IMG/VR virus record: IMGVR_UViG_3300037517_002510
Coordinates: 1-50,317 of that record
Source: a virus
Reading direction: 5' to 3' (one strand)
DNA: 50,317 nucleotides
The notes beneath the pieces are model-generated. The model saw only the letters and a list, made by a program, of their open reading frames with translations, had not been told where the DNA came from and did not search any database. Made by a program: the position numbers and the translations under genes. Of this stretch, positions 1,997-32,247 are shown piece after piece. The number at the start of each line of letters is the position of its first letter. Positions within the stretch are counted from its first letter, which is position 1.

Positions 1997-2212
1997 ATGG
2001 GAATGAACATGGTCAACGTCGGGCTGCGAACCGGCCCGGCAAAGCCGAGGCCAAAGGTCCAGATTGGCGTGGTCCGGAGGGCCAGCATGCCGGCAGGGAC
2101 TGTGGTTCCCTTGTTCGGGGACAGTTTCAACTGGTGGTTAAACGGTGCCCCTGTCATGGGTTCCACCGTAACCTTCGATTACGGACTCAACGGCGGACCT
2201 CTAGGAATTTGA
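1997..2212 (+). CDS. Small hypothetical protein
   Basis: This 71-residue ORF sits between two virion-like genes with 6-base and 3-base gaps. It is basic near the N-terminus and has no recognised motif. The start region has several ATG codons (1997, 2003, 2009), and the exact start is uncertain. The tight spacing supports a real gene. Confidence 0.6.
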   Translation: MGMNMVNVGLRTGPAKPRPKVQIGVVRRASMPAGTVVPLFGDSFNWWLNGAPVMGSTVTFDYGLNGGPLGI

Positions 2213-2215
2213 CGT

Positions 2216-3154
2216 ATGGCATGGACAGTTACCACCGGCACCGTAAGCGGCACCGCCGGCTCCCTCATCACCGCCCTCGACCTTGAGCTGGTCACGAACC
2301 GTGGCTGGACCAAGGAGTTCTCGGGCACCAACAAGGCGGCCTACCGCAACAGCGCGCTGGCGCTGGCTCGGAAATACATGCGGGTGGTCGATGATGGCAC
2401 GGCTCCGACCTCCGGCGCTAGGGAATCCCTTGTCCAAGGCTACGCCACGATGTCGACGGTGGATGCCGGCACCGGACAGTTCCCAACCTCGGGCGACGCC
2501 TACATTCGCAAGAGCAGCTTGGCCGACGCCACGGCGCGGACCTACCTTGCGGTGGGCGACGACAAGACGTTCTACCTTTTCGTGCTAACCGGGGACACGG
2601 CCAACCAATACCTAAGCCACGGGTTCGGCGACTTCTACTCTTACAAGCCGGCTGATACGCAGGCGTGCATCCTGTTTGCGCGGCCGGTGAACACCACTTC
2701 CTCGTCCGAGTGGTCCTTCTTCTGGCAATGGAACAACAGCACCTATGGTGCAAATTCAGCCAATTACATTGGCGGAAGCATCGTTGGAGTCCCGGGAGAA
2801 ACGACGCTGTGCAAAACAGTTTCCGGAGCCGTTCAAATCGCAAACTACGGTGCGGAGGCAGTGAACTCGCACATCCCATTCCCGAATGTTGCGGACGGTG
2901 CCATCTGGGTGTCCCCATATCAGATGCTCACCAGCGCGGGCGGAAGCACGGTGGTGGACAAGGTTCTCCGTGGAAAGCTCCGCGGAATTTACTATCCGAT
3001 GCACAACTCCGTGAACTTCAGCGATGGAGACACGTTCAACGGGGCGGGCGACTTGGCGGCGAAATCGTTCAGAATCCTGAAGGGGGTTGGATTTAACGGG
3101 ACTTCTACCTACGTCGGCGCCGTTGAAACCACCGAACCCGAATCCAGCACGTAG
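2216..3154 (+). CDS. Putative virion structural / tail protein
   Basis: This 312-residue protein resembles a group of phage structural proteins that open with a Trp/Thr-rich strand. They then carry a segment like 'FSGTNKAAYRN', a 'RVVDDG' segment, and 'FPTSGDAYIRKSS' followed by 'YLAVGDDKTFYLF'. Such proteins occur near tail or fibre genes of environmental phages, and their exact role is unknown. The gene is followed after two bases by the next ORF. The reading frame and codon use are typical of the genome. Confidence 0.8.
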   Translation: MAWTVTTGTVSGTAGSLITALDLELVTNRGWTKEFSGTNKAAYRNSALALARKYMRVVDDGTAPTSGARESLVQGYATMSTVDAGTGQFPTSGDAYIRKSSLADATARTYLAVGDDKTFYLFVLTGDTANQYLSHGFGDFYSYKPADTQACILFARPVNTTSSSEWSFFWQWNNSTYGANSANYIGGSIVGVPGETTLCKTVSGAVQIANYGAEAVNSHIPFPNVADGAIWVSPYQMLTSAGGSTVVDKVLRGKLRGIYYPMHNSVNFSDGDTFNGAGDLAAKSFRILKGVGFNGTSTYVGAVETTEPESST

Positions 3155-3156
3155 TC

Positions 3157-3618
3157 ATGGCCGCGCTGCCTTACGATGGGACCACGGACAACGGGGTGTT
3201 TGAATCCCGGAGCGCCGTGCTGCTTTCCGCAATCCTTCACCGCAGCGTCCGCACCACCGACGGCGTGCAGTATTGGCTGGGGGCAGGCAAGGACGCCGTG
3301 GTGGGGAATCCGGCACCCGGCTACAAGTTCGAGCGTTACGGCTCGCTCAAGCTGCGGCTGGCCATCTCGTCCGGGACGCACATCGTCTACGCGCAGGTGC
3401 TACAACCGGACGCCTCCGCAACCCGGCCGTTCCTTCGCGTGCTGGCAAACGGCGACATCGGGTTCAACGCACCGCTGACATCAACTGCCGGCTCGTCGAC
3501 CGGGTGGCAGACGTTGGCCGTCTCCGTGACAGCATCGCAGGACGGAGGCGTTCTGGTTGAGCTTTGCAACGCCGACTTGTCAAAACCCTGCTGGTTCGAC
3601 AACGTCACCGTGTTATGA
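3157..3618 (+). CDS. Jelly-roll-like carbohydrate-binding candidate
   Basis: The protein has 153 residues and looks all-beta. The C-terminal segment ending 'CWFDNVTVL' is the kind of final strand seen in carbohydrate-binding (CBM-like) jelly-roll modules, where 'hhDNVxV' closes the sandwich. This is a texture match, not a proven domain. Its position among lectin-like genes supports a host-surface binding role. Its stop overlaps the next start. Confidence 0.7.
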   Translation: MAALPYDGTTDNGVFESRSAVLLSAILHRSVRTTDGVQYWLGAGKDAVVGNPAPGYKFERYGSLKLRLAISSGTHIVYAQVLQPDASATRPFLRVLANGDIGFNAPLTSTAGSSTGWQTLAVSVTASQDGGVLVELCNADLSKPCWFDNVTVL

Positions 3619-4637
3619 GCGCCATGACCACCACCATTGGGACCGGCCTTCAGGGTGGCGCCAACCGCTCCGGCTACGTCTACGACGGCCTGACGCAGTA
3701 TCCGGACCTCGCATGGTCGGAAGGCTACGTGTTCCGCGGCGGAACCGGCTGGTGGCAGGAGTGGCTGACGATCTTCCCGACCTACGACGAGGCGACCGCC
3801 AGCGTGACTGGCGCCAATTACGCAACCTTGGGCGGAGGTTCCGTGAACGTCTATGCCAGCAATGCTGGCACTGGATGGACGGAAGCGTTCACGGGCCTGT
3901 TCCCATCCGTTCAGGAAACGGACGCAAACATGGTAGCCTACGTCTACCAACGGGTTAATTTCCGCAACTGCCCTCCGTTCGTGGGCAACAGCGCCCCGTT
4001 CGTGCCGTTTACTTCCGGCGGGCAGTTAACCAACACGCAAAATCGCCGGGCATGCTACGCCCAGACCAATGTCGGGCTTCGTCCAGCTCTGGTGCCTGCC
4101 GCGGTTCCCGATGCGCTGGAGATGAGCTTCGACGGCACAGGCCAGTATTACCTTCGCACCGGGGCCGGGACTAACGGAGGCAATGTCATGGTCCTGTTCC
4201 GGACCACCTCGGCCAACACGCGACTGGCGGCCCACGTTTACGATACCGCAACCCCGGCCAATGTGGGCCTTCAGCTTGGCTGCTCAGGCGGACAGTCGGT
4301 AGTGTGGGCGGCCAAGACGACCGCCCTGACCACTATTGAAAATCCCGGCCCACTGCTGCCTGCGGTCACCGTGAATGACGGCGCAATTCATTCGGTGAGT
4401 GCTTACACAATAGGCAACAGCCCGACTTTCTTGGCCGCGACGGACAGCACGGACCAGACGGCTACCTTTTCCGGTAACGCGGCAATGCCAAGCACTAGTT
4501 TCTCTGTGACGCTCGGTTGTAAAAACGACTTCAGTAATCCGTTCATTGGGGAAATTGTTGAAATTGTTCTCTTTCGCAACGATGCGCCTTTGGCTACTAA
4601 AATAGCCATCAGCCAGCAACTGATCGCCCAATGGTAG
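3615..4637 (+). CDS. Lectin-like (concanavalin/LamG-type) tail protein
   Basis: The start at 3615 was chosen because it overlaps the previous stop as ATGA; the upstream part of the frame lies inside the preceding gene. The 340-residue product ends with a segment typical of LamG/ConA-like domains: 'GQYYLRTG' and 'VMVLFRTTS', then 'GEIVEIVLFRNDAPL' about 25 residues before the end. The N-terminal half is Gly/Tyr/Trp-rich. It probably binds glycans on the cell surface as part of a fibre or spike. GC drops visibly in the last 250 bases, which may mark an exchanged tip domain. Two octamers (3854 and 3863) lie head to head here. Confidence 0.75.
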   Translation: MSAMTTTIGTGLQGGANRSGYVYDGLTQYPDLAWSEGYVFRGGTGWWQEWLTIFPTYDEATASVTGANYATLGGGSVNVYASNAGTGWTEAFTGLFPSVQETDANMVAYVYQRVNFRNCPPFVGNSAPFVPFTSGGQLTNTQNRRACYAQTNVGLRPALVPAAVPDALEMSFDGTGQYYLRTGAGTNGGNVMVLFRTTSANTRLAAHVYDTATPANVGLQLGCSGGQSVVWAAKTTALTTIENPGPLLPAVTVNDGAIHSVSAYTIGNSPTFLAATDSTDQTATFSGNAAMPSTSFSVTLGCKNDFSNPFIGEIVEIVLFRNDAPLATKIAISQQLIAQW

Positions 4638-5359
4638 TCCTCATCTCAGGAACATTTGGAAATGTCGTTTCAACGAAATTCGTGAACACGACTATGGACT
4701 CCTTAACTCGGGCGCTTCCGTTTGGAAGCCAGTGGTCCAAGGTGCGGGTAGGGATTCGGTGCTTGCATGGGTTAGCTACCGCAACCCCGACCCCGGCAGA
4801 GCAAGTCCCGCTTTTCTTCGGACTGGATTCGTCCGCCGCCGCCTACGGTTACCCCAACACGTTCAACACGGTTCCGACCGGCGTGCGGGCGTTGGGGCTA
4901 TGGGTTGGAAACCCGCATCGGACCGGCGTAAGCAACCCGCATTATGACAACACCGCGGCGCAAAACCTGATTATTGACCAGACCGAGGCGACGGTGATTG
5001 TCAGTAGCCAGCTATCAGTTACACCCTACTGGACAGGCGCAACCGCCACCAATCAGGTGCTTGTGCTTGAGTTCACCAAGGGCAGCTCCGCGATTACCGT
5101 CGATGCCTTGTTCCTGAACACGACGGCCACAGCGATATCGGAGGCTACCTTCGACAGCGTAATGGCCGCCGACACGATGGCCGCAGGTCTGGCGTTGCTG
5201 GGGGTTACCTACACGCTGGAAACGCATTCCATTCCCGGAGCCATCGCCCGGGAAGCCGACGGGGCGCTGGACCGAGTGTGCCTTTCCCAATCATTTAACC
5301 CGGCCGGTTCCGGGCAGGAGGTTCAGATGCAAAAACTGGCCATCCGCCGTCTTTACTGA
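4631..5359 (+). CDS. Virion protein, tandem paralog copy 1
   Basis: The 242-residue protein is clearly related to the next gene. Both share 'LTRALPFGSQW' / 'LARAFAIGSDW', then 'FFGLDSS' / 'DFGLDHE', 'YPNTFN' / 'YPSTFD', 'GLALLGVTYTLE' / 'LALLALGGTYTLA', and a C-terminal 'LAIRRLY' / 'FTLRRIA'. The pair arose by tandem duplication. The function is unknown, but the position between a lectin-like protein and a papain-like protein suggests a virion surface component. This copy is less GC-rich than its sister. Confidence 0.75.
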   Translation: MVVLISGTFGNVVSTKFVNTTMDSLTRALPFGSQWSKVRVGIRCLHGLATATPTPAEQVPLFFGLDSSAAAYGYPNTFNTVPTGVRALGLWVGNPHRTGVSNPHYDNTAAQNLIIDQTEATVIVSSQLSVTPYWTGATATNQVLVLEFTKGSSAITVDALFLNTTATAISEATFDSVMAADTMAAGLALLGVTYTLETHSIPGAIAREADGALDRVCLSQSFNPAGSGQEVQMQKLAIRRLY

Positions 5360-5361
5360 CC

Positions 5362-6087
5362 ATGCCAGCATACAAGCAGACCAAGACCATTGCCGGGACA
5401 CCCACGGACCTTTTCAAGCTGTCCGCGGACACCTTGGCGCGTGCTTTTGCCATTGGCTCCGACTGGACGCAGCTTCGGTTTGGGTTCCGGGCGCAACTGG
5501 ACGCCGCTCCCGCCGCCGGCTCCGCGGCCATCGTCCGCTTCGACTTCGGCTTGGACCACGAGGCCGGACCGCTTTACCCAAGCACGTTCGACGCCCCAAA
5601 CTCCGGAGCGCATTACATCGTCCAGCGGAACGCCTACCAGCTTGAGAACCGGGTGGCTGGACCACCCGTGGTGTTCTACCCGTCCGCCGGGGCAAACGAT
5701 GACGTGGTGGTGGATGGCCACAACCTCACGGACGACTTCAGTGCCAGCACGGGCCAGTCCCGCCTCAGTGGCAACCCTGACATAATGGGGTGCTACATCA
5801 TCGAAATCACGAAGGGCACCGACTACGAATACCGCTACCTGTTTCCGTCGGCTGACGCGATGGTTCACAAGACCTCCGCAAACCTTGCGACCGCGATGGG
5901 TGTGGCGGACATGGGTCTGGCGCTGCTGGCACTTGGCGGAACTTACACGCTGGCATCCGCCACGATCACCGGGGCCGCCGCACGGGCCACACTTTACGGG
6001 CAGTTAAACCGGGCTTTCGTGTCATGGGCGAAGGACCAAACCGCGCCGATTAACTTCACCGACTTCACCCTCCGCAGGATTGCATGA
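5362..6087 (+). CDS. Virion protein, tandem paralog copy 2
   Basis: This is the sister of the preceding 242-residue protein (241 residues), with conserved blocks along the full length. The start codon is followed directly by the genome-wide octamer (M-P-A encoded by ATGCCAGCA), as also seen at 22349 and at the capsid start 49881. Its stop overlaps the start of the next gene. Confidence 0.78.
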   Translation: MPAYKQTKTIAGTPTDLFKLSADTLARAFAIGSDWTQLRFGFRAQLDAAPAAGSAAIVRFDFGLDHEAGPLYPSTFDAPNSGAHYIVQRNAYQLENRVAGPPVVFYPSAGANDDVVVDGHNLTDDFSASTGQSRLSGNPDIMGCYIIEITKGTDYEYRYLFPSADAMVHKTSANLATAMGVADMGLALLALGGTYTLASATITGAAARATLYGQLNRAFVSWAKDQTAPINFTDFTLRRIA

Positions 6088-6497
6088 AACCTGTCTCCAT
6101 TGAGCTGCTGCACGGCTCCCTGAAGCGCGCCGGATTCACGGAGATTCGGTTCGGCGACGAAAACTACGTGGCTCCGTCGAGGTCATGGCTGGGTGAGTTC
6201 GCCAGCTACATCCGGAGCAACGCACCCGCCTACTTCGCCCAGAAGTTCGACTGCGAGAACTTCGCCCGGTGGGCATCCTGCGAGGCAGACAAGGCGCTGT
6301 ATGCGTCTGAGGTTACGGATGCCGGCCACACTTTCGCGGAAGCACGCTGCGTTCTCCAAAAGGACGGTAAATCGCAGATGCACGCGCTAAACGTAGTCCT
6401 GTGTGATGATGAAAAACTTTACGTGCTTGAGCCGCAGAATGGTGGGGTGTTTCTGCTTGATGATTTTGACGCTCTGTGGACCTCTGTGCGGCTGTAA
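6084..6497 (+). CDS. Papain-like cysteine-peptidase-fold protein
   Basis: The 137-residue protein has the order Cys ('KFDCENFARW', about residue 55), His ('SQMHALNVV', about 100) and acidic/Gln ('YVLEPQNG', about 115). That is the arrangement of papain-like or transglutaminase-like small phage proteins related to the MOA/agglutinin C-terminal domain. The motif order is visible in the sequence; catalytic activity is inferred. It precedes membrane and lipoprotein genes and may act at the cell envelope during entry or lysis. Confidence 0.65.
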   Translation: MKPVSIELLHGSLKRAGFTEIRFGDENYVAPSRSWLGEFASYIRSNAPAYFAQKFDCENFARWASCEADKALYASEVTDAGHTFAEARCVLQKDGKSQMHALNVVLCDDEKLYVLEPQNGGVFLLDDFDALWTSVRL

Positions 6498-6537
6498 GCA
6501 TGAGCCGGCAGGTCCGCCGATTATGCGGTAACCCACC

Positions 6538-6846
6538 GTGGACAATTACTTTCAACTTTTACAAGACCACAGTGATCTTTTACAAGACCACGGTGAGCAA
6601 ATAGCCGTGCTTCAAATCGAAATGAAGGCCACAAAAACTGAACTCGCGGAGTCCAAGATGCGGGAACGCGACTTGGAAAAGGCTATCAACCATCACAACG
6701 TCACGCTGGCGCAGTGGGGCGTCATTCTCTCGGCACTGGTGTTCGTGGCCGGCACCGTGACCACGCTTGCCGTCCGATCTTCCTATGAATCCGTGAAGGC
6801 TGCCATCATATCGGAAAACGCGAACCGAAACTCACGCCCACAATGA
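6538..6846 (+). CDS. Coiled-coil membrane protein
   Basis: This GTG-started 102-residue protein has a heptad-rich N-terminal coiled coil (residues about 5-55, with a short 'LLQDH' repeat) followed by one transmembrane segment (about 62-82, 'GVILSALVFVAGTVTTLAV'). Its stop overlaps the holin-like gene. The architecture recalls haemolysin XhlA-like or spanin-like accessory lysis proteins. That role is inferred from topology and neighbours only. Confidence 0.65.
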   Translation: MDNYFQLLQDHSDLLQDHGEQIAVLQIEMKATKTELAESKMRERDLEKAINHHNVTLAQWGVILSALVFVAGTVTTLAVRSSYESVKAAIISENANRNSRPQ

Positions 6847-7031
6847 ACAAACTTTTTGAAATCATCGTTCGTGCCAGCATTCAAGCCGTTGCCGGCGCGA
6901 TGATGTCGAAGGGAATCGTGATTTCAGACGGACACATCGAACAGATTGCCGGCGCGGCGACCATCATCGTCACCGTAGTCTGGTCGGTCTGGTCAAAAAA
7001 CAAGGCAGCCCATGAAAAACCACAAGATTAG
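6843..7031 (+). CDS. Holin-like small membrane protein
   Basis: The 62-residue protein has two hydrophobic stretches (residues about 10-25 and 35-52), ending in 'VTVVWSVWSKNK'. This is a familiar tail of short phage holin-superfamily proteins, in which a Gly-containing helix is followed by VWS-x-W and lysines. It sits between a coiled-coil membrane protein and a lipoprotein, which supports a lysis role. The endolysin lies about 27 kb away. Confidence 0.65.
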   Translation: MNKLFEIIVRASIQAVAGAMMSKGIVISDGHIEQIAGAATIIVTVVWSVWSKNKAAHEKPQD

Positions 7032-7308
7032 CCTGCTGCTGGCAGTGATGCTGGCAGGCTGCGCGGTGAACCGGCCCCAGTTCTACGAAAAGACCACCGG
7101 GACCAACGGTGTTGTCATGGAGCGCAGGCTGGCCGTGTCCACATGGACGTTCTGGCCGGCAACTTCCGAAATCGGGAAGCAGAAAGCGTCGCTCGGGAAG
7201 ACCTTCAGCCTCGGTCAGTCGGAACTGGACCAGTCCGGCGGCGGAACCAACATGGTTGAGGCGCTGAAGTCCATTGACTCCATCATCGGCAAGCTCTCCC
7301 CAAGGTAA
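7012..7308 (+). CDS. Outer-membrane-type lipoprotein
   Basis: The 98-residue protein opens with a lipoprotein signal peptide: basic MKNHK, a hydrophobic core, and lipobox L-A-G-C with the acylated Cys at about residue 17. The mature part is small and polar. Its start lies inside the end of the holin-like gene. A lipoprotein next to a holin-like gene suggests an Rz1-like o-spanin, though no Pro-rich region is evident, so that remains a guess. A lipoprotein implies a diderm host. Confidence 0.7.
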   Translation: MKNHKISLLLAVMLAGCAVNRPQFYEKTTGTNGVVMERRLAVSTWTFWPATSEIGKQKASLGKTFSLGQSELDQSGGGTNMVEALKSIDSIIGKLSPR

Positions 7309-8092: not shown

Positions 8093-9367
8093 TTACATCA
8101 TGTCGATGGCGTCTTCGGGATTTTTCGGCGCGGCGGATTCCTTTGCTGCCGTCCGGCCGGAACCCGGCTCCGAACCCGACAGGTCGGACAGCCGCTTCTC
8201 CAGCTCCTTGACCTTCTGCTGAAGGCGGATGGTGCGGAGACGCTCCCGGCCAAAGGCGCGGGCGCGGAGTCCCATCTGGGCTTGGGCGCGTGCCATCATC
8301 TGCCCGCGTTCAATCGGCGACAGGCTTTCATCCAGTCCTTCGCCCTTCGTTCCCATGCGGACTAGCTTCATGCCGGACTCAAGCAGGGAGTTTCCTTCGT
8401 CGTCCCCATCCTCCTTGCCGAACAGCGCGGAGTATTCGGTTTCGGTCGTGGTGAACTCCTCGTCGAACGCGGAGTGCAGTAGCGACACCTGCTGCTGCTG
8501 CTGGGTTTGCCGGTCCTGATCGCGGCCAATCCCCTTTTCCTTCCACTCGTCGATTGCTTTCTGCCGGGCGTCCCGCAGCTCAATCAGCTTGCGACGGTGG
8601 ACCATGATTTCCGGGGCGGCCGGGCCGAACAGCTTTTGCGCCTCAACCGCGGCCTTGCCCGTGGGCATGCCCATGAGGGCAACGATGTCCCGGTGGCTGG
8701 CGGGACGCTCACCGTCGCCATCCTCGACCACGATTCCGTCGATGTCGTCGATGGCCGCCTTCCACGCATTCTTCACCGGCTCCTCGAACCGCTCCTTGTA
8801 GTCGCGGGACCGGGTGTAATCCATGAAGCGGACCTCGGTATCCAGCTCCTCGTTGCGCTTGCGGATGTCATCCAGCTCCTTCTTCAGGGCGGCGGTGGCA
8901 GTCTCAACCTCCTTGCGCGTGCCATCAGCCTTGGCGGCATCCAGCTCCTTGAGCTTGGCGGCAAGCTCGTCGCGCTCTTTCTTGGTCAGCTCGTATTGCT
9001 CCCTGAACTGCCTCATGGAAGTGGGAGCCTCCTCCTTGGCCTTGGCCGCCGGGGCAGGCTGCGGTGACTTCAGCTCGGCTTCCCTCTTGGCCAACCCAAG
9101 CAGGTCGTCCATGACGGGTTTCGGTGAGGTCTTGGTCGGGGCCGCCTCCTCCACCTTGGCGGCCGGCGGTGCCTCCACCTTGGCGGAAGCCTCGGGCGGC
9201 GCGCTCGCCTCCGCGGCCCGCGTGTCGGTCGGAAACACGTCCCCGTCAATCTTGTCGATGGCGGAGAACGCATCGTCGTAATCCGCCCCGCGCTCCGGTG
9301 GCGCCTCCGCGGTTGCGCTGCCGCTGTCTGGGGTGGGAGTGAACAGGATTCGGTGGGTCTTAAACAT
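8093..9367 (-). CDS. Putative scaffolding / capsid assembly protein
   Basis: The 424-residue protein is almost entirely charged. A Pro/Ala/Glu-rich N-terminus (1-115) is followed by long coiled coil (about 118-190), more helix, a poly-Gln run (about 295), and a final coiled coil near 385-405. It is the last gene of the operon that carries the portal. Position and composition fit an internal scaffold, but no signature residue proves it. It starts seven bases inside the end of the upstream gene. Confidence 0.65.
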   Translation of the reverse strand: MFKTHRILFTPTPDSGSATAEAPPERGADYDDAFSAIDKIDGDVFPTDTRAAEASAPPEASAKVEAPPAAKVEEAAPTKTSPKPVMDDLLGLAKREAELKSPQPAPAAKAKEEAPTSMRQFREQYELTKKERDELAAKLKELDAAKADGTRKEVETATAALKKELDDIRKRNEELDTEVRFMDYTRSRDYKERFEEPVKNAWKAAIDDIDGIVVEDGDGERPASHRDIVALMGMPTGKAAVEAQKLFGPAAPEIMVHRRKLIELRDARQKAIDEWKEKGIGRDQDRQTQQQQQVSLLHSAFDEEFTTTETEYSALFGKEDGDDEGNSLLESGMKLVRMGTKGEGLDESLSPIERGQMMARAQAQMGLRARAFGRERLRTIRLQQKVKELEKRLSDLSGSEPGSGRTAAKESAAPKNPEDAIDMM

Positions 9368-12064: not shown

Positions 12065-12655
12065 TTACCGTGTCGCAATCGCAAAATTTCCAACAAGCTT
12101 CTCGACAGTCCAGCCACAGGCGTCGGCGGCTTGGATGGAGTTCCCGTATTGAGGCAACCAGTCATCCATAAGGACGGTTTTGATTCCAAGTGTTTCGCAA
12201 AGCCTCAAGTCTCGCGAGGTTGCTTCCAATGAATGATCACCGTCCACGTAGGCCGCATCAAATTGAATCCCGGTTGCTACAAGCAGCGGATGCGCGACGG
12301 CTGAATCACTAATGATGAGCCGTAGCGAATCGGGGCCGTATTTCTGGATGATTTTTTGCTCACCGGAGCGGACACCTTTTGTGTCATACAACTCGACGCT
12401 CACTACTTTTTTTGCTCCGAGTGACAGCATGAGTGCCGCACTTGTGCCGGCGTTAAATCCAATTTCAAGGATGGTTGGAGTCGGTTTCAAATCCCGCATA
12501 AACTCAATGAATGCGGGGCAGCAATGCGGTCCACTGCCAAACACGGCCGGACCGGCAAAGCAGTCAATTCCGTTGATGGCGGCTTCATACATTGCTTTGT
12601 ATTGTTCAGCATGGCGAACGTGATGCTTGTCGATGAGTTGGAATAAGTCAGACAT
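12065..12655 (-). CDS. SAM-dependent methyltransferase (class I)
   Basis: The start at 12655 (MSDLFQLIDK) was preferred over longer frames that run into the upstream gene. The 196-residue product has the class I SAM-binding core: 'ILEIGFNAGTSAALML' (motif I, about 77-92), 'VVSVELYD' (about 100), and 'FDAAYVDGDHS' (about 147-157). The last is typical of the Methyltransf_24 group that acts on sugars and small molecules. Directly downstream of a glycosyltransferase, it may O-methylate the glycan. Lower GC than its neighbours points to recent acquisition. Confidence 0.82.
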   Translation of the reverse strand: MSDLFQLIDKHHVRHAEQYKAMYEAAINGIDCFAGPAVFGSGPHCCPAFIEFMRDLKPTPTILEIGFNAGTSAALMLSLGAKKVVSVELYDTKGVRSGEQKIIQKYGPDSLRLIISDSAVAHPLLVATGIQFDAAYVDGDHSLEATSRDLRLCETLGIKTVLMDDWLPQYGNSIQAADACGWTVEKLVGNFAIATR

Positions 12656-12671
12656 ACGGTTTTCTATTTTG

Positions 12672-14360
12672 TTATTGTGTCCCCGCAAAGTTGGTTCCGA
12701 GTTTACCCAAAGGATTCCCGCTGAAGAAAGCGCCCCACTTCCGGCGAAGGATTGCATGGGAAGCTGCCAGCATCTTGTTTTTTTCAGTGGTGGTGGACTG
12801 GCTTTCCTCGTGGATTCCCGTGGCCTGCGGGTTGTAGACCACCTTCCAGCCGGCACGACGAAGCTTCATGCACAGGTCAACGTCCTCCGAGTAGCAGTCG
12901 TATTCCTCGTCGAATCCGCCGACTTGGAAGAACGCGGACCGCCGGACCAGTGCGGCGGCGAACGTGACGCACTCCATTTCCGTTTGGACCCGGATGCTTT
13001 GGATGACCTTCTGATGGTCGATGTGACCGTATCCCGCAGTTCCACGGAACATCCCGGCGTGCTGAATCTTGCCATCAGGATACCGCAGCAACGCGCCCAC
13101 CACCGCCACGTCGGCGTTGTTCTTCAACACCGCCTTCATGGACGCCACGGCGATTCCGTCCAAGTAGCAATCATCGTTCAGGAACAGCAGGTATTCGCCA
13201 TAGGTGCGGCGGACGGCCCGCTGGCAGTTCTTCCCGTAGCCAAGACGGGTTCCGGGACACGGAATGGTCCTCACGTCCGAGCCCGATGGAATCTTCACCG
13301 GAACGCAGTCGCCATCCAGCGCAACCACCGTCTCGTAGACTTGATGCCTCACGGCTTCCAAGCACCGATGCAGCCTCGGCGTGTCCTTGTAGACCGGAAT
13401 GATGGCGGACACCAAGCCGTTCGTCAGCGTGTCCAGCTTGGTCGCAGCCGCCGAAAGGATGGCCGATGGATTCACCCACTGGCACGGCGGGGCCGACTTC
13501 ATGCCCGGGATGACGCAGGCGAACTCGTTGCACGGGGAGCATTTCACGTCCGGCGGCACCCTGAGGTAATCCGTCTGGTCGTTGAGCCGCCGGTCGATGG
13601 CGATGGATTGCTCCAAGACCACGATGGGTTTCCCCAGCGCGGCGGCAACGTGCATCGGTCCGGTGTCCGGCGTGATGACCAAGTCACAGCATGCTATCAC
13701 GGCGCAGAACTCACGGAACGTCCTTGCCCAGTCCGTCACCATGACGTTGCCAACCGCCCCGTCGATTGCAATGGCGTCAGGGATGCCCACGAACACCGAA
13801 CCCGGCAGCGCCCGAATGACATCCATGAACGCGCATTCATGCAGCGTCCGGCTTGGCCATGCGACGGAGCGTCGAACAAACACGGTCCAAGGCCGCGGCA
13901 TCTTTGCCATGCGGCTGACGGCCGCGGAAATCTCCTCCTTGGTCAGGACCATGTGCGGCCGGAGGTTGATGGCCTTCTCGGGAATCCCGTGCCTCCGCAG
14001 CTCCAGCGCGGCGGCATCGAAGAACATTTCCCCGACGGACTTTCGCTTCCGGTTCAGGTTTTTCTCGTAGGTGTTGTCGAGGTTCACCGCCGGCATCACC
14101 TCGTCCGTGACGACGTTCATGAACGGGAGGTTGTCCAGAGCCGGGGCGCATGAAATCGACGTGTCGAAGCGGACGGTGAGCCCGAAGTCGGCGAACCGCT
14201 TGGCGAGCGGCGTTGCCATCAGCACGTCGCCAAAGGCTGCCTTGCGCCGGATGGTGACGAGGCTGGACGACTTCGGCGCGGAAAGCTGCGCCATGAGGCG
14301 GCGCGCTTCGCCGGGGGTGCGGACACCCCGCTTGGTCAGGATGCTAGGATGGACTGGCAT
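12672..14360 (-). CDS. GT9-GT2 fusion glycosyltransferase
   Basis: The 562-residue protein combines two glycosyltransferases. Residues 1-305 are heptosyltransferase-like (GT9): 'FGDVLMATP' at 43-51 and 'DTGPMHVAAALG' at 232-243. Residues 317-562 are GT-A family 2: 'SAIIPVYKD' (318-326), a 'FLNDDC' acidic motif near 394-399, and 'GGFDEEY' with 'SEDVDLCMKLRRAGW' near 480-505. It lies in the head/terminase operon next to a methyltransferase, which suggests it decorates a virion or host glycan. Its start overlaps the end of the upstream gene. Confidence 0.85.
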   Translation of the reverse strand: MPVHPSILTKRGVRTPGEARRLMAQLSAPKSSSLVTIRRKAAFGDVLMATPLAKRFADFGLTVRFDTSISCAPALDNLPFMNVVTDEVMPAVNLDNTYEKNLNRKRKSVGEMFFDAAALELRRHGIPEKAINLRPHMVLTKEEISAAVSRMAKMPRPWTVFVRRSVAWPSRTLHECAFMDVIRALPGSVFVGIPDAIAIDGAVGNVMVTDWARTFREFCAVIACCDLVITPDTGPMHVAAALGKPIVVLEQSIAIDRRLNDQTDYLRVPPDVKCSPCNEFACVIPGMKSAPPCQWVNPSAILSAAATKLDTLTNGLVSAIIPVYKDTPRLHRCLEAVRHQVYETVVALDGDCVPVKIPSGSDVRTIPCPGTRLGYGKNCQRAVRRTYGEYLLFLNDDCYLDGIAVASMKAVLKNNADVAVVGALLRYPDGKIQHAGMFRGTAGYGHIDHQKVIQSIRVQTEMECVTFAAALVRRSAFFQVGGFDEEYDCYSEDVDLCMKLRRAGWKVVYNPQATGIHEESQSTTTEKNKMLAASHAILRRKWGAFFSGNPLGKLGTNFAGTQ

Positions 14361-14712
14361 GTGCTTTTGATTCCTTCGCCACCCAGCAATGTTCCGGCAT
14401 CCCCTTGGCGCTCAGGTGCTCCAGCGGAATCCAAATTTTCAGCGGCAGGTGGCAGTTGCAAACGTCGCAGGTCTTCAGCGCGGACTCGCCGGGCAGGATT
14501 GCTCCGATGGCATGCCGCACCCGTTCCGAGTCGCGGATGACCTTCCCGATGGCGCGCTCCACCGTCTTCTTGTCGATGTTGTGCGGGCAGGTGAAGCAGG
14601 TGGTCATGCGCGCCGCGGCAGTGTCGTGATCGGCCGGCTTCCCGCCCGCACCCAGCCATGCGGACAGGGCGCGGACAGCCTTGGCGTCGGTGGCTATGCG
14701 GGAGAGGTTCAT
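14344..14712 (-). CDS. Small cysteine-rich (zinc-binding-like) protein
   Basis: The start at 14712 overlaps the previous stop (ATGA), giving 122 residues. Cys/His pairs are visible as 'CFTCPHN', 'CDVCNCHL' and 'EHCW', a spacing suited to binding zinc or an Fe-S cluster. The family is common in phage head operons but has no agreed function. It runs 17 bases into the glycosyltransferase gene. Confidence 0.7.
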   Translation of the reverse strand: MNLSRIATDAKAVRALSAWLGAGGKPADHDTAAARMTTCFTCPHNIDKKTVERAIGKVIRDSERVRHAIGAILPGESALKTCDVCNCHLPLKIWIPLEHLSAKGMPEHCWVAKESKAHASPS

Positions 14713-14993
14713 CGGCCACAGAACCCGCATTGTTTCACGGCAGAAGATGATCGGACCACGGCAGGTTTCGGCGCGTTCAGGCCAAGCCTTGCCGCGGTAA
14801 ACTCCACGAGGTCGTTGGCCACCGTTTCCGGACCCGACCTAGCTGCCAGCACGGGGTTCGCCATGCGATGCTTCACGATCATGCTCACCGCCGAACTGAA
14901 GCTGTGGTTCAGCGGTGATGGCAGGCTCCACCCGGTTTCAGGCTGGTAGTATTGCCAGCCGCCGGTCGGAGTTTTGGTCAGGTTGAGTCTCAT
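14709..14993 (-). CDS. Small hypothetical protein
   Basis: The 94-residue protein starts two bases after the SSB stop codon. It opens with 'TGGWQYYQPETGW', a segment seen in short phage proteins upstream of the Cys-rich family found next door. It ends in 'CGFCGR', a possible half metal site. It may pair with its neighbour, but the function is unknown. Confidence 0.7.
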   Translation of the reverse strand: MRLNLTKTPTGGWQYYQPETGWSLPSPLNHSFSSAVSMIVKHRMANPVLAARSGPETVANDLVEFTAARLGLNAPKPAVVRSSSAVKQCGFCGR

Positions 14994-14994
14994 G

Positions 14995-15435
14995 TCAGAA
15001 CGGAACGTCATCCCCCTCCCCGTCAAGGTCGCCGGCCGTCTTGTTCGCTGCCGGAGGCGAGGAGTCGCGCTTCGGTGCCGGCGATTCATGCGAGGAGTTT
15101 TTCCCGGTATCGCCGCAGAACTGGAAGCTCTCAACAACAATTCGCGTCGCGCTGCGTTTGGCGCCCGTCTGCTTGTCATCCCATTCCTCGCGGGTCAGTC
15201 GGCCCTCAACCAGAATCGGGCTGCCCTTCCGAAAGAACTTGTTGATGGTTTCGGCGGCGGTCCCGAACGCCTTGCACTCGGCGAAGTAAACGTCCTCCCG
15301 CTGCTCGCCGGATTCGGTCTTCCATTTCCGGTTGTTGGCGATGGACAGGTTGAGGACGGCCGTTCCCTTCGGCAGGTATTTCAGCTCAGGGTCGCGGGTG
15401 ATGTTGCCTTGGATGAAGACTTTGTTAAGGGGCAT
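14995..15435 (-). CDS. ssb: Single-stranded DNA-binding protein
   Basis: The 146-residue protein has a typical OB fold: 'NKVFIQGNITRDPELKYLPKG' near the N-terminus, 'LSIANNRKW', and 'SPILVEGRLTREEWDD' near residue 75. A disordered Pro/Ser linker leads to the acidic tip 'DDVPF', which recruits replication and repair proteins. It is unusual that this replication protein lies directly behind the terminase in the late operon. Its start overlaps the terminase end by 11 bases. Confidence 0.93.
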   Translation of the reverse strand: MPLNKVFIQGNITRDPELKYLPKGTAVLNLSIANNRKWKTESGEQREDVYFAECKAFGTAAETINKFFRKGSPILVEGRLTREEWDDKQTGAKRSATRIVVESFQFCGDTGKNSSHESPAPKRDSSPPAANKTAGDLDGEGDDVPF

Positions 15436-17194
15436 AGGTGAGTTGGTGTTCTTTCAGAAGTTTCGTGTGCTTGTCAGACATACGTGTAAGCCACTGTGAT
15501 GTCTTGCGCTTTACAATACCGGGCGACGAACCGGCTGCAATCTCAAATCCGTTCCGGCGGGCGATTTCGATGGCGACCACCAGCGAGTCCCACAAGTCGG
15601 GCGAACGACCCATGCGGTCCTTGGTCTTTTCCTTGGGCTCCACGTCGATGAGCCCGGTGCGGGAGATGCCCCACTCGCGCATGGCGCCCTCCTCCGCCAC
15701 GTCCCGCGGCAACTTGCGGAGCTGCTTGCCCTCAATGATGAGGCGGGACGCATACCAGAGCGCGGTGACCATCTTGCCGTAGGCTTCCCGCTCCGTCTTC
15801 TCGTCACCCCTGCGGACCGGCCGTTCCATCGGCCTGCCGCCGAACTCGATGGGGACCACTACCGGGGACCACAGGCGGGCGAAGGCGGACATGAGCGTGC
15901 CGCGGCCGGTGGAGTCGAAGCCAACCCGCTCCGGCGTGATGGACCGCTGCTCGCAATACAGCCGGACGTATTCGGCAATCTGCTCCTCCGCCTGTTGGGC
16001 GCGGGCAGCGGTGATCGGGATGATTGTCGGCGACTCCGAGAATGATAGCAGGATGCTTCCGTCCCGTGCCGGCCCGAACGTCAGGTCGGTGAGCACGCAG
16101 CGGTCACCGCCCACGCCGGAGTAGGCGGCGTCGATTCCCACCACCCGCGTCAGCTTGTCGGACTGGTGCCAGACTGGTTCATCGAAGGCGCCGTTCTGCT
16201 CGCACAGAGACACCGTGACCACCCGGCGCGTCCCGCCGTCCCGCGGAAGGACACCCAAGTTCATCATGGAGAATTGCAGCGAGTCCCGCCCGTAGTAGGC
16301 CAAGTCCGCCTCAATCTGCTCCGGCGTGATGATTCCGCGGAACGGGTTCAGACCCTTCGGATAGTCCTTGTTTGGGGTGTCGAAGCCGCAGAGCTGGACC
16401 GCCACCCCTCCCGGCGCCCGGGTTTTCCACGTCCGCGTCTCCTCCTTGTATTCCAGCCCCTCCCACCCGCCAATGGACGGATGCGGCTCACAGACAACAC
16501 CGAGGGCGTCGGTCCGGTCCTTCGGGTTCCCCATCGCTATCATCTTGAACGATGGATTCTTCCGGAGGTTGGACACGGAGTCCAAGAACCCACGTCCCAT
16601 CAGCGATGCCTCGTCAGCTATCAGCATGACCCGGTCGTTTTTCAGGCCGACGTAGTTGGAAAGGCCGACGAAGGTTCCGCCGACACGGCACGCCACGCCA
16701 ATGATGCCATCACGGAAGTCCCATCCTTCCCCCTCGGCGACCTCGGTGGTCAGGGCGAACTTCGATTCATGGACCTTTCCCGGCAGCCAAGCCCGCCGCT
16801 CCTTTGCCTTGGAATGCAGCTCCTTGATGGCACCCCAGATGCGGAGCTGGAGGCCGTCCCGGGTAGTCGATGACATCACGATGCTGGTGCCCTTCGGCCA
16901 AATGTAATACGTGGCCAGCCCGAACGCGGCGGAACAGAACGTCTTCCCGGAGCTACCCGGACCCATGACGCCGACCTCGTTGTTCTCCACGAAGGTCTTA
17001 ATCAGGAGGTCGGACCAGTGGTGCCACTTGAACCAAGGCCAGAGCGCGGTCATCGCCTGTTTGTAATGGTAGGCCAGCCCGGAACCGTGCCGGACACCGC
17101 CGACTTCCTTGTATCCGCCAGCCTTGATCATCGCCGCCTCAATGAGAAAACGGTCCTTGGTGCTCCACGGCAGCGACAGATACTCCTGATTCAT
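15425..17194 (-). CDS. terL: Terminase large subunit
   Basis: The start at 17194 (MNQEYLSL) gives 589 residues; a longer frame would overlap the divergent gene. The N-terminal packaging ATPase has Walker A 'GPGSSGKT' (78-85) and Walker B 'VMLIADEAS'. The C-terminal RNase H-like nuclease shows 'VVGIDAAYSG', 'GFDSTGRG' and 'DLWDSLVVA', carrying the expected metal-binding acids. It packages DNA through the portal encoded downstream. No small terminase subunit could be recognised. Confidence 0.92.
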   Translation of the reverse strand: MNQEYLSLPWSTKDRFLIEAAMIKAGGYKEVGGVRHGSGLAYHYKQAMTALWPWFKWHHWSDLLIKTFVENNEVGVMGPGSSGKTFCSAAFGLATYYIWPKGTSIVMSSTTRDGLQLRIWGAIKELHSKAKERRAWLPGKVHESKFALTTEVAEGEGWDFRDGIIGVACRVGGTFVGLSNYVGLKNDRVMLIADEASLMGRGFLDSVSNLRKNPSFKMIAMGNPKDRTDALGVVCEPHPSIGGWEGLEYKEETRTWKTRAPGGVAVQLCGFDTPNKDYPKGLNPFRGIITPEQIEADLAYYGRDSLQFSMMNLGVLPRDGGTRRVVTVSLCEQNGAFDEPVWHQSDKLTRVVGIDAAYSGVGGDRCVLTDLTFGPARDGSILLSFSESPTIIPITAARAQQAEEQIAEYVRLYCEQRSITPERVGFDSTGRGTLMSAFARLWSPVVVPIEFGGRPMERPVRRGDEKTEREAYGKMVTALWYASRLIIEGKQLRKLPRDVAEEGAMREWGISRTGLIDVEPKEKTKDRMGRSPDLWDSLVVAIEIARRNGFEIAAGSSPGIVKRKTSQWLTRMSDKHTKLLKEHQLTYAP

Positions 17195-17238
17195 TGCTTG
17201 CGTGCCGGTAACACGGGGGGTTGGATTCGGCAAGATTC

Positions 17239-19068
17239 ATGGCAGTCAAAGACGCGAGACTGGTTGACGGGTTCATCACCTGCGAGGCTGGGGTGGACAG
17301 CGGTTTTTCGCCGCTGCTTCTCCAGCCGAATCAACTCTCGTGGGCGGTCAATGCCAGCATGCGGGCGGGGTTCCTGAACTGCCGGCCCGGCTGGTGGAAG
17401 CGGGCGCTGAAGTTCCCGGCGCCGGATACCGGCGGCATCGAAGCCCTGTTCGCCTCTGGCCTGTGGCAGGGGTGCGGAACCTACGTGGCCGACAACGGCG
17501 TGACCTCGTTGGCCGTCAGCATCTCCGGGCGAATCTTCCTCATCAACGCGCAGTCGTTCGTGGTGACCGAGATTACCATTCCCGGGAACGTGAACTCCGA
17601 GGTGGAGCGGCGGGCGTGGTTCCAGCAGGCGGAGCGGTATCTGATCGTCCAGAACGGGCTCAACATTCCGTTCCTTTACGACGGTGCCAACAGCCGGCGG
17701 GCAACCGCGGACGAGGTTCCCATCGGCGGACCGATGGCCTACGGCAAGGGCAGGCTCTGGGTGGCGCGGGGGTCGGTTTACTTCGGTGGCGACCTTGTCT
17801 GGTCGGACATCACCCTCGGCCGCGACTCCATCATCAAGTTCACCGAGAACACGTTCCTCAATGAAGGTGGCGCGTTTGCCGTCCAGAACGGCCCGATTAC
17901 CGGCATGGCGTTTGCCGCCAACCTCGACACATCGCTGGGTGACGGTGACCTCTTGGTGTTCACCGCCAGTGCAACCTATGCCTTTTCGGCCCCGATTGAC
18001 CGGGACGTGTGGAAAGACCTTCAATATCCCATCCAGCGGTTTGCACTCCTGAACTTCGGGTCGCACAACCACGAATCCATCGTGCCGGTGAACGGCGACC
18101 TGTTCTTCCGGGCGCAGGATGGCATCCGGTCGATGATCTACGCCCGGCGTGATTTCACGGAATGGGGCAACACCCCCATTTCCCGGCAGATGGCCCGCGC
18201 CCTTCAATACGACAGCTCGCCGCTGCTCTGGGCGGGCAGCTCAGTCAACTTCGACAACCGCTTCCTGACGACCTTGCAACCGCAGCAGGTCAACGGCCGC
18301 GGCGTTTATCACCGCGGGCTGGCGGTGCTCGACTTCCACCTCGTCTCCGGCATGGGGGCAAAGCTGGCGCCGGCATGGGAAGGTGTGTGGACCGGCTGCA
18401 AAATCATGCAGACGTGCTCCACCATCGTCTCCGGCCAGACCAAGGCGTTCCTGTGGACGCTGGAACCGGGCGGGGAGTTCGGGCTTTACGAGGTCACCAA
18501 GGATGCGCCGTTCGACTATGATGGCACGTCGGACCGGACAACCTCGTGGATTGCCGAGTCCCGCGGGTTCACCTTTGGCGACGCGAACGGGAAGAAGCGG
18601 CTGAACGGGGCCGAACTCTGGTATGACCAGATGCTCGGGGAATGCACCCTCTCGTTGCGCTACCGGTCCAACCAGTCCGCGTGCTGGTCGCCGTGGGGCT
18701 ACTTCGCGGACTGCGCCACCTACCGCTCCTGCGAGGGTTATCCGTGCCACGAAATCACCTACTACAAACCGGCTCAACGTGCCCGCGTCGGGTTCCCGCA
18801 GCCCAACGATGACATCGACCCGCAGACCGGGGGCTTCACGCGGGACGGGTATGACGTGCAGGTTCGCATCGAAGCCACGGGCCGGTTCCGGCTGAAGCGT
18901 TTGCTGCTAGCATCCAAGGTGCTTCAGGAAGACACGTTCGGCGACATCGCCAACGTGCAGTGTGCGCCCACGTCCGGGGCAACTTGCCAAGTCGGCTGCC
19001 TTGCGCTGGAATGCCCGGGTGTCTGCTCGGAGCCGCCAGACTACGACTACCAAATTTCAACCTCCTAA
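17239..19068 (+). CDS. Tail hub / nozzle-like structural protein
   Basis: The ATG at 17239 gives 609 residues. The protein is beta-rich with repeated Asn/Gly/Trp blades and reads like the propeller-type nozzle or tube proteins of short-tailed phages. It contains 'GNVNSEVERRAWFQQAERYLIVQNG' -type segments split by turns. The final 60 residues are Cys-rich, suggesting disulphides or metal binding. It is divergent from terminase by only 44 bases and leads the tail operon. Fold and role are inferred from texture and context. Confidence 0.65.
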   Translation: MAVKDARLVDGFITCEAGVDSGFSPLLLQPNQLSWAVNASMRAGFLNCRPGWWKRALKFPAPDTGGIEALFASGLWQGCGTYVADNGVTSLAVSISGRIFLINAQSFVVTEITIPGNVNSEVERRAWFQQAERYLIVQNGLNIPFLYDGANSRRATADEVPIGGPMAYGKGRLWVARGSVYFGGDLVWSDITLGRDSIIKFTENTFLNEGGAFAVQNGPITGMAFAANLDTSLGDGDLLVFTASATYAFSAPIDRDVWKDLQYPIQRFALLNFGSHNHESIVPVNGDLFFRAQDGIRSMIYARRDFTEWGNTPISRQMARALQYDSSPLLWAGSSVNFDNRFLTTLQPQQVNGRGVYHRGLAVLDFHLVSGMGAKLAPAWEGVWTGCKIMQTCSTIVSGQTKAFLWTLEPGGEFGLYEVTKDAPFDYDGTSDRTTSWIAESRGFTFGDANGKKRLNGAELWYDQMLGECTLSLRYRSNQSACWSPWGYFADCATYRSCEGYPCHEITYYKPAQRARVGFPQPNDDIDPQTGGFTRDGYDVQVRIEATGRFRLKRLLLASKVLQEDTFGDIANVQCAPTSGATCQVGCLALECPGVCSEPPDYDYQISTS

Positions 19069-19071
19069 ACC

Positions 19072-20073
19072 ATGCCAGAAGTTGTCCTGACACCCGGAGT
19101 CCTGCCGCAGCCACAGTGCTACGCGGACGAGCAATCCCGCTTTGAGGCGTATGTGGCGGCAATCATCACGTCGCTTACGGGCGGGCTGCAATGGACTGCC
19201 AGCACGACGGCGCCCACTGACCTGACGCAGTATTGGCTGAAGACCGATACATCGAACCCGGGCGACCCGACGTATGCCCGCGGGCTGGAAATCCTGAAGT
19301 GGTCGGTCCCGGATGCCGCTTGGGTTCGGGTGTTCTCGGTGCCCTCCTCGACGGGCGTCATCGGCGGGGTGGTGAACTCCTTCACGCTGACGCACTCGCC
19401 GCCCTACATCACCGCGGCATCGGCTTACCGGGTGGGGCAGGTTTACGTCTTCATCGCCAACAATGCCATCACGGGTGCCAGCACGCTGAACGTGGACGGC
19501 CTCGGCGCCAAGGCGATCAAGAAGCGGGTCACCGTGGACTTGGCTGAAAACGACATCCTTGAGGACCAGATGGTGTCCGTGATCTTCGATGGCACGAACT
19601 TCCAGATGCTCTCGGAAGCCTCGACCTACGACCTGTCGAACTTTCCGGGTGGGGAGTTTGGGGAGGTGCTGAAAATGGTTGGACCGTATCCAAGCGTGAC
19701 GGTGGATTGGGATAGTTTTGCATTTGCGTCGGATTTGCAGGCATTCCCAGCAACCCAAGGGGCCGCTGCTACGCCGGTTTCCCACAATTTTTCATCCCAG
19801 CCATCATGGTATAGATGGGTAGCGGTGTGTAACACCCCGGAACATGGCTATCTTGCAAACGAGGAAGTTCCTACCGATTGCCTCATTGAGTCAAACGCCT
19901 CCAGCACGACATCGCAGTTTAGCACGCAATGGGTCGACACTGTGAACGGGACTTTGAATTTGCGCCGCGCAAACATTGGCGTGAATACCGTTTACATGCT
20001 GTCCAAAACAGCCGGGGCGCTGTCGGTTTTGACTCCCGGTAGCTGGAGGCTGAAAGTTTACTACGCCCGATAA
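19072..20073 (+). CDS. Fibre / receptor-binding protein candidate
   Basis: The 333-residue protein has an N-terminal half with fibre-like segments ('TAPTDLTQYWLKTDTS', 'ITGASTLNVDGLGAKAIKK'), the latter typical of phage fibre repeat regions. The C-terminal third (from about base 19670) has clearly lower GC and different codon use. That is what one expects when receptor-binding tips are exchanged between phages. The gene lies between the tail hub and an adaptor. Confidence 0.72.
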   Translation: MPEVVLTPGVLPQPQCYADEQSRFEAYVAAIITSLTGGLQWTASTTAPTDLTQYWLKTDTSNPGDPTYARGLEILKWSVPDAAWVRVFSVPSSTGVIGGVVNSFTLTHSPPYITAASAYRVGQVYVFIANNAITGASTLNVDGLGAKAIKKRVTVDLAENDILEDQMVSVIFDGTNFQMLSEASTYDLSNFPGGEFGEVLKMVGPYPSVTVDWDSFAFASDLQAFPATQGAAATPVSHNFSSQPSWYRWVAVCNTPEHGYLANEEVPTDCLIESNASSTTSQFSTQWVDTVNGTLNLRRANIGVNTVYMLSKTAGALSVLTPGSWRLKVYYAR

Positions 20074-20076
20074 CCC

Positions 20077-21120
20077 ATGAGGAAAACCCTTCTCCAAGCC
20101 AAGTCTGGGACCATTCCGCAAGCAGTGGGTTATGCCGCCTGTGACAGCAGGTTCGTGATGCTGCTCAACGAGGCGCAGTCCCGCCTTGCTGACATGGGAA
20201 AGTGGTGGGGCACCTACAAGCGCATGCGGATTTGCGTTACCGCAGGCTGCATTACATGGCCCCGCGAGGTGAAGACCGTCGAGGCGATGAACGTGTGCGG
20301 CATGGGGATTCCGGTTCAGAACGGGTGGTATGAGTTCCAGCAGGACGTGCCAGCACCGGGAATCGGGTGCGAATCGTGCGAGCAACGGCAGCTACTTGAC
20401 CGCGGAATGGTGACTCAGTATCGGGATTTTACGGGGCTTTCCAAGGTTCGCATCTACGCCTCGTCAGCAAGCGACTACGGCAAGCGCGTGCTGCTTCAGG
20501 GAATCGACGCCAACGGCGATGCCATAAGGACGTTGGACGCAGTTTCCGGGGACTACGTCTGGGGCGAATACGTCACGCTGGCCGCCGGGTTCGTGGAGAC
20601 GACCAACTCCTTTGCGTCCCCGCTCCTCACCGGGGCACAGAAGGCGGTGACCAACGGGCGGCTCACGGTCACGGGCGTCAACGTGGTGTCGGCGGTTGAA
20701 ACCGAGGTTGCCGTGTGGGAGCCCGCCGAGGAGAACCCGCAGTATCGCCGGACCTACCTCGTCAACCGTCCGACCGGATGCAACGACGGAAGCTGCTCCG
20801 ACGGTGGCGACGGCTGCACCCCGGCGGTCACGGACTGCACCGGGTCGATGATGGAAGCAATCGTCCGGCTGGAGTTCGTGCCGGCGGCGGTGGACTCCGA
20901 CTGGCTTTTCATCGGGAACCTGCAAGGGCTGAAGCACATGATGCGCGCCATCCAGAAGGAGGACCGCAACGAATACAACGAGGCGGAGCGGGAGATTCAG
21001 CTTGCGCTCCGGGCGCTTCGGAATGAACTCGAAGCGTATTCCCCGAAGGAACGAACCGTCGTGAACGTGTTGTCGTATGGAACTGCAAACCCCCGAAAAA
21101 TCTTCTCCGGATTCATCTGA
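20077..21120 (+). CDS. Head-tail adaptor-like protein
   Basis: The 347-residue protein resembles a widespread environmental-phage family. Members start with a helix ('LLNEAQSRLADMGKWWGTY'), continue with 'CITWPREVKTVEAMNVCG' and an 'NGWYEF' motif, and end with a long helix followed by basic residues. These occur beside the tail hub and are probably neck or adaptor components. Three cysteine pairs are present. The last 44 bases overlap the next gene. Confidence 0.65.
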   Translation: MRKTLLQAKSGTIPQAVGYAACDSRFVMLLNEAQSRLADMGKWWGTYKRMRICVTAGCITWPREVKTVEAMNVCGMGIPVQNGWYEFQQDVPAPGIGCESCEQRQLLDRGMVTQYRDFTGLSKVRIYASSASDYGKRVLLQGIDANGDAIRTLDAVSGDYVWGEYVTLAAGFVETTNSFASPLLTGAQKAVTNGRLTVTGVNVVSAVETEVAVWEPAEENPQYRRTYLVNRPTGCNDGSCSDGGDGCTPAVTDCTGSMMEAIVRLEFVPAAVDSDWLFIGNLQGLKHMMRAIQKEDRNEYNEAEREIQLALRALRNELEAYSPKERTVVNVLSYGTANPRKIFSGFI

Positions 21121-31812: not shown

Positions 31813-31839
31813 ACCACCACCTGCTAGCAAAATCAAACC

Positions 31840-32076: not shown

Positions 32077-32247
32077 TTTTGGCGAGCCGCACTGCGCCCA
32101 GCGCAACGGCAAAGAGTAGCCACCGAACGCCGGGCCTAGGCGTGACAGCCGGAGAGACGGAACCTTGTCCGCTGGTGAACCGCGGAACGCTGAACGGTGG
32201 AAAGATGACCGAGACAGCCGGAGAGACGGCACCAACTCAAAACGCAC
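32077..32247 (+). repeat. Intergenic region with 17-bp direct repeat
   Basis: This 171-base gap has no ORF. GACAGCCGGAGAGACGG occurs at 32144-32160 and again at 32213-32229, 69 bases apart. The segment between them has CGCTG/GAACCGCGGAACG inverted elements. The second copy ends 18 bases before the exonuclease start, so it may bind a regulator or form a leader structure. Confidence 0.6.

Follow-up and report, generated by a model that had tools for sequence, protein, structure and literature searches.

A putative glycan-building cassette at a modular site in the head module of uncultured tailed phages

A fused GT9-GT2 glycosyltransferase (GT) and a methyltransferase (MT), encoded between the terminase and portal genes of an uncultured virus, may form an old, modular glycan-building cassette that is fixed in the head module of a whole group of uncultured tailed phages and whose acceptor would most likely be a head or neck protein. 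The probability of this reading is put at roughly 0.45. The site itself is, as judged from the sequences compared, an old modular site for carbohydrate enzymes, with a changing complement of accessory methyltransferases and other genes.

Gene order of the head module

The window (the whole stretch of DNA analysed, an IMG/VR virus record of 50,317 bases) bears the cassette and the head genes on its minus strand, in the order terminase, SSB, UP94, ZN128, GT9-GT2, methyltransferase, portal-type protein and scaffold-like protein (Table 1). A first-pass annotation of this DNA had placed a GT and a methyltransferase between terminase/SSB and portal, and the ORF map bears this position out; two genes it had left unnamed, UP94 and ZN128, sit between SSB and the GT. 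The ZN128 and GT genes share a 17 nt overlap in different frames. Chance or chimeric ORFs were ruled out for the cassette, since homologues lie in conserved order in other contigs, with gene order and overlaps recurring.

Table 1. Genes and domains of the head module and cassette in the window
Feature	Position	Strand	Basis or remark
Large terminase	15425..17233	-	Start of head module; phrog_2 terminase large subunit, E 7.2e-9
SSB	14995..15435	-	PF00436, E 1.7e-30
UP94, small protein with PPGGW..QPET.W motif	14709..14993	-	Without family match; homologues in 12/12 related records
ZN128, cysteine-rich domain	14344..14730	-	Alignment and AF2 model
Fused GT9-GT2 glycosyltransferase, 562 aa	12672..14360	-	Pfam and AF2 fold match
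GT9 half (GT-B, heptosyltransferase fold), residues ~35-310	13431..14258	-	PF01075; 3tov/1psw/TibC, Z 20-23
GT2 half (GT-A), residues ~316-520	12801..13415	-	PF00535; Z 17-20 against GT2 structures
Class I methyltransferase, Methyltransf_24 type, 196 aa, GC 0.508	12065..12655	-	PF13578
Portal-type protein, 765 aa	9643..11940	-	Name from size and place; without family match
Scaffold-like coiled-coil protein	8093..9367	-	Name from position; without family match

Among phage records, neither the DNA of the cassette region nor the window portal found a match, and the terminase matched at only 22%, to Arthrobacter phages. The SSB gene is part of the head module in the window and in 6/6 cassette-less records, and in 0/6 outgroup records; in L001 its position is taken by an unrelated 125-aa gene. 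A 406-aa gene at positions 39-1259, with homologues in 12/12 related records (33-66%) and no family match, encodes a candidate major capsid protein.

Several further features of the window lie outside the head genes. Hardly any gene of the block at 1997-7308 has a homologue in the 12 related records, and the block is possibly a host-range region; positions 2216-3154 match phrog_9600 (tail assembly). A RecT-like annealing protein is followed by a DUF3799 PDDEXK-like nuclease at 30760-33027, and a tRNA-Met gene lies on the minus strand at 34307-34381. An AAA ATPase (phrog_249) adjoins a DUF7192 protein at 37378-39395, an arrangement absent in G020, G034 and six outgroup records, and two adjacent MT-A70 methyltransferase genes (PF05063) at 44911-46193 lack homologues in all 12 related records.

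The fused glycosyltransferase

The GT is one 562-aa ORF in which both Pfam domains score above cut-off, as the first-pass annotation had proposed in calling it a two-domain GT9-GT2 fusion. The match to PF01075 (Glyco_transf_9) covers residues 215-248 only (E 8.5e-10, 38.8 bits, cut-off 22), and that to PF00535 (Glycos_transf_2) residues 318-477 (E 7.6e-12, 45.9 bits, cut-off 23.3). The same annotation had named structure prediction of both domains as a check, and the GT9 and GT2 folds were each recovered. The AF2 model, built from a 6-row alignment, had a mean pLDDT of 70.6 and a pTM of 0.74, with residues 435-451 and 519-562 below 50. Residues ~31-315 matched the GT9 structures 3tov (Z 22.9; 272 residues aligned, rmsd 3.2), WaaF 1psw (Z 21.7), TibC (Z 20) and WaaC (Z 19.9), while residues ~314-522 matched the GT2 structures 6yv7 (Z 19.6) and WrtF (Z 18.9). 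Across six relatives, D45, D232, P235, H237, C274, C277, C282 and C293 are invariant in the GT9 half, as are N395-D396-D397, E492-D493 and H517 in the GT2 half. Such invariant active-site residues would fit working enzymes, as expected, and the four cysteines presumably resemble the metal site of TibC. The GT scored far below the cut-offs of the NCBIfam heptosyltransferase equivalog models (TIGR02195, heptosyltransferase II, E 8.5e-8) and of all specific GT2 family models, and its tblastn matches to phage records fell in the GT2 half only, at 22-31%. The highest 19-residue hydropathy was 1.57 in the GT and 1.27 in the MT, with no obvious membrane segment in either; from this ceiling we infer that the GT acts as a soluble enzyme in the cytoplasm.

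The fold of the GT9 half bears on an alternative, in which the cassette would remodel a host surface glycan (the LPS core or another envelope glycan) during infection and so block superinfection or re-adsorption to debris, with the GT9 half acting as on LPS heptose. By fold, the best matches of the GT9 half are indeed LPS heptosyltransferases and a GT9 protein that is uncharacterised, but TibC, which we take to be a protein-modifying GT9 enzyme, trails them only slightly (Z 20). The TIGR02195 match points to the host surface while lying far below its cut-off, as does the presence of GT25 (LPS-type) and pyruvyl transferase genes in related cassettes. Superinfection prevention by cell-wall glycosylation is, moreover, suggested for freshwater actinobacteria phages in PMC10202952. 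No membrane protein, flippase or lipid-carrier gene was seen in the cassettes, however, and the cassette sits within the head module, with fusions linking it to proteins of that module. Remodelling of the host surface is considered an unlikely, if still serious, explanation.

The methyltransferase and its base composition

The start of the MT ORF was set at the ATG at 12655 and not at the GTG at 12856, which lies inside the GT gene. The product matches PF13578 (Methyltransf_24) just above cut-off (E 4.2e-6, 28 bits against 26.3) and gave no match to a TylF model; the label of sugar-type methyltransferase it had received earlier is plausible. Homologues occupy the same site in L084 (35%) and L086 (32%), and in L085 a TylF/PF13578 protein comes after the GT; a single-protein search of viral contigs returned no MT homologues. 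Judged only by the neighbouring genes, a function as a sugar O-methyltransferase is plausible.

With a GC content of 0.508 and a GC3 of 0.536, the MT falls below its neighbours (0.62 and about 0.8), while the GT, at 0.618 (GC3 0.806), matches its own genome (window 0.621). Low-GC accessory genes also occur in L085 (0.45 and 0.44 against 0.52) and L167 (0.42-0.48 against 0.53), with the GT keeping genome GC. The accessory genes therefore have the appearance of exchangeable parts, and nothing in the base composition marks the GT core as foreign; the MT of the window may have been exchanged recently.

Carbohydrate enzymes at the same site in distant relatives

Thirteen distant contigs could be read past ZN128 (L001, L083, L084, L085, L086/L159, L166, L167, L168, L177, L343, L344, L345 and L346). 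Left out were L087, which ends in the GT, L169, which ends after ZN, L178 and L186, where no ZN was found, L214, with a portal match on the other strand, and the too short L093 and L095. In all 13 the interval from ZN128 to portal is occupied by other genes; in L344 and L346, whose pieces stop short of the portal, such genes follow ZN128. Nine of the 13 (L001, L083, L084, L085, L086, L343, L344, L345, L346) have GT9 homologues at the site. The cassette of L167 follows a UP94-ZN-GH130-like ORF and comprises GT-like, FkbM, GT25 and PF13578 genes. L166, L168 and L177 carry one gene at the site, with a GT-A-like motif by eye and no Pfam or PDB match, which by that motif is a putative GT. Two of these contigs have a second gene set after the scaffold gene (L166, 16956-19752; L168, 17246-20769), that of L166 including a weak GT9 match; whole-record searches found GT2, GT9 and PF13578 there.

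Sugar-modifying neighbours in the cassettes of relatives include PS_pyruv_trans, TylF, PF13578, FkbM, GT25, GH130-like proteins and further GTs. The recurrence of methyltransferase, pyruvyl transferase and GT neighbours would fit enzymes that build and cap a glycan.

The L084 cassette also holds a gene with a PPC motif and no Pfam match, which we take to be cytosine-methyltransferase-like. It could be read in favour of another role, in which the GT would glycosylate phage DNA bases against host nucleases; base glycosylation is the function of some phage GTs according to PMC12619734 and PMC10202952. Such a gene occurs, however, in L084 only among 13 records compared, and the thymidylate-synthase-type family PF00303 is absent from the window and outgroup records (0/11; control positive in 9/14). 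The Tet_JBP family (PF12851) was likewise found in 0/11 of these records, a count that says little because its positive control was silent. Modification of DNA bases is held to be very improbable.

A sister clade without the cassette

A terminase search returned 80 close loci at 76-79% identity, among them L081, which is the window's own virus (99.96% over 4,895 bases, window 16074-20968); L094 was counted in its place, giving 80 loci of other viruses. As confirmation of the cassette L081 was dropped, because the contig does not cover it. The site is spanned in 66 of these close relatives, and in every one of them the portal comes directly after ZN128; the other 14 of the 80 are too short. The distance from ZN128 stop to portal start is 6-7 nt in 63/66; in the remaining three the computed stop of the ZN frame lies beyond the portal start, with ZN and portal matches still within ~23 nt. 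By coordinate arithmetic, the ZN128 and portal matches of L074 (12482-12845) abut in one frame, as if an intervening stop were missing. Nine more contigs without the cassette were found via ZN128 (L275, L279, L285, L288, L290, L302, L306, L320 and L337).

Family content was compared across 36 whole records, comprising the window, 10 of the outgroup and 25 cassette-less ones (mostly the longest of the clade); as the records are related, the counts do not represent independent events. PF00535 was found in 9/11 window-plus-outgroup records against 0/25 cassette-less ones, and PF01075 in 8/11 against 0/25. PF13578 was found in 8/11 against 1/25, the exception being G027, where it lies at 5-6.5 kb, a long way from the site. 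Across records, GT and Methyltransf_24 co-occur. When 59 window ORFs were compared with 12 related records, none tracked cassette presence, and the comparison thus gave no pointer to the acceptor.

In the terminase (26 rows) and portal (25 rows) trees the cassette-less rows form one side of a branch (SH-aLRT 96 and 100), with the window outside this clade and adjoining it; these trees are unrooted and, like all others here, quick and without bootstrap. Support for the cassette-less clade was 99 with L344, L345, L302 and L337 added and 98 without four long rows; in the terminase tree without those rows, the window and L345 branch at the base in no settled order. A 91-row tree gave a count of three changes, because the truncated or rearranged L093, L169, L178, L186 and L214 had been labelled cassette-less. 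Since the rows outside the clade have cassettes, the pattern is explained most simply by a single loss in the sister clade.

In the reverse history the site would have been empty ancestrally, and the GT and MT of the window would have entered it by a recent horizontal insertion. In agreement with this, the 80 loci in the closest clade lack the cassette where readable, the MT is low in GC and GC3, and the window GT has a long branch. Yet GT homologues sit at the same site in nine distant contigs, the window lies outside the cassette-less clade in both trees, and the GT matches its own genome in GC and GC3. Recent insertion was rejected for the GT on this GC match and the tree position, and may hold for the MT; for the two genes together we regard it as improbable. 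The recent addition that the first-pass annotation had seen in the MT's lower GC may stand for that gene as an exchange, but finds no support for the module as a whole, given the distant GT homologues at the same site and a pattern fitting one sister-clade loss. The window GT is itself more diverged than the terminase (45% against 64% identity to L001), and the GT tree (six rows) resolves only L084-L085, with the window GT on a long branch. Because of this divergence and unsettled placement, the window GT may have been exchanged with a related phage or re-acquired at the same site.

ZN128 and UP94 are joined to the enzymes by in-frame fusions

ZN128 has C45, C48, C88, C91, C93 and C115-W116 invariant in 24 rows and an AF2 model with pLDDT 81.5. 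It found no match in Pfam, PHROG, NCBIfam, PDB sequences or PDB folds, none among phage records, and none of significance in BFVD (best E 0.079). ZN and GT are separate genes in the window and in L086, and elsewhere they are joined. ZN-GT9-GT2 forms one frame in L001 (659 aa), L083 (657), L084 (667) and L085 (682), L343 and L345 have ZN fused only to GT9 (436 aa), and in L344 and L346 one ORF of 747 aa encodes UP94-ZN-GT9-GT2. In L167 the UP94-ZN ORF has a GH130-like C-terminus. By Rosetta-stone reasoning, these fusions would tie UP94 and ZN128 to the enzyme. Both proteins persist in the clade without GTs, which argues that they have some role of their own.

A bolder proposal, which we hold as doubtful, is that UP94 and ZN128 form a docking or acceptor unit of the head module that becomes fused to whatever carbohydrate enzyme fills the site (GT9-GT2, GT9 or a GH130-like domain). 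The ZN128-portal site would then be an exchange point for types of virion glycan, and one clade would have given up its glycan coating and kept the dock.

Proposed mechanism and its significance

Under the reading of a head-module glycan cassette, the GT9 half would add one sugar, possibly heptose from a host nucleotide sugar, to the acceptor, the GT2 half would extend it with the next sugar and the MT would O-methylate the glycan product. ZN128, with UP94, would bring the enzyme, or what it makes, to the particle under assembly; it is because these two belong to the conserved head module that a head or neck protein would be the likeliest acceptor. Differing accessory genes at the site would give each lineage its own glycan, and one sister clade would have dropped the cassette.

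About a dozen contigs with the cassette, together with the window, can be set against a large sister clade without GT2/GT9 match; this natural contrast set would allow the effect of a phage glycan on virion and host to be tested. The fusions point to UP94 and ZN128, conserved and unnamed head-module proteins, as possible glycosylation partners, a role that could explain other now-unnamed genes of their kind.

A host was sought through MAG matches and was not found: the matches were three small MAG contigs (Actinomycetota, Chloroflexota, Verrucomicrobiia), one of them read as phage-only, and no host is claimed since binning error is possible. Among genomes of two phyla (387 and 400 searched), 8 and 10 had a match, nearly all weak; the best new genome match, L260, looks like a distant prophage terminase and was set aside.

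Comparison with known systems

Phage serotype-conversion cassettes of the gtrA/gtrB/gtrC type combine a membrane flippase with a membrane GT. The present cassette differs in both respects, with hydropathy of at most 1.57 in GT, MT, ZN128 and UP94 and no flippase family among the scanned cassette genes of the window and its relatives.

In 2023, Freeman et al. reportedly described GTs of the mycobacteriophages Che8, Corndog and Myrna that glycosylate virions. According to PMC11256854, PMC12619734 and PMC12363180, mycobacteriophage capsid and tail-tube proteins are glycosylated by phage GTs, and PMC10202952 describes freshwater actinophages that encode GTs, with DNA protection or superinfection exclusion proposed. 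What is shared with the mycobacteriophage systems is a soluble GT, encoded by the phage, for which structural proteins are the proposed substrates. Unlike the mycobacteriophage enzymes, the GT described here is a GT9-GT2 fusion, is tied to a cysteine-rich head-module protein, is accompanied by methyltransferases and occupies a fixed terminase-portal site; the GTs of Maravista, according to PMC11256854, are encoded close to the 3′ end of its genome.

With WaaF, WaaC and TibC the GT9 half shares its fold (Z 19-23), D45, the DTGPxH core and four cysteines, but it is fused to GT2 (and in relatives to ZN/UP94) and falls below the cut-offs of the heptosyltransferase models. The GT2 half resembles WrtF, chondroitin synthase and MftF in fold and motifs, with specific family models far below cut-off. 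The MT is akin to the Methyltransf_24/TylF/CmcI sugar O-methyltransferases through its PF13578 match, and same-site relatives match TylF and RMNT_CmcI; it differs from TylF/CmcI in that it matches PF13578 weakly and no TylF model. A literature search found nothing on the arrangement of GT9-GT2 with UP94/ZN128 in a head module, which is no proof of its absence in print. Three features set the present case apart from known phage GTs: a GT9-GT2 fusion, the tie of this enzyme to two conserved proteins of the head module, and an exchange site at a fixed place.
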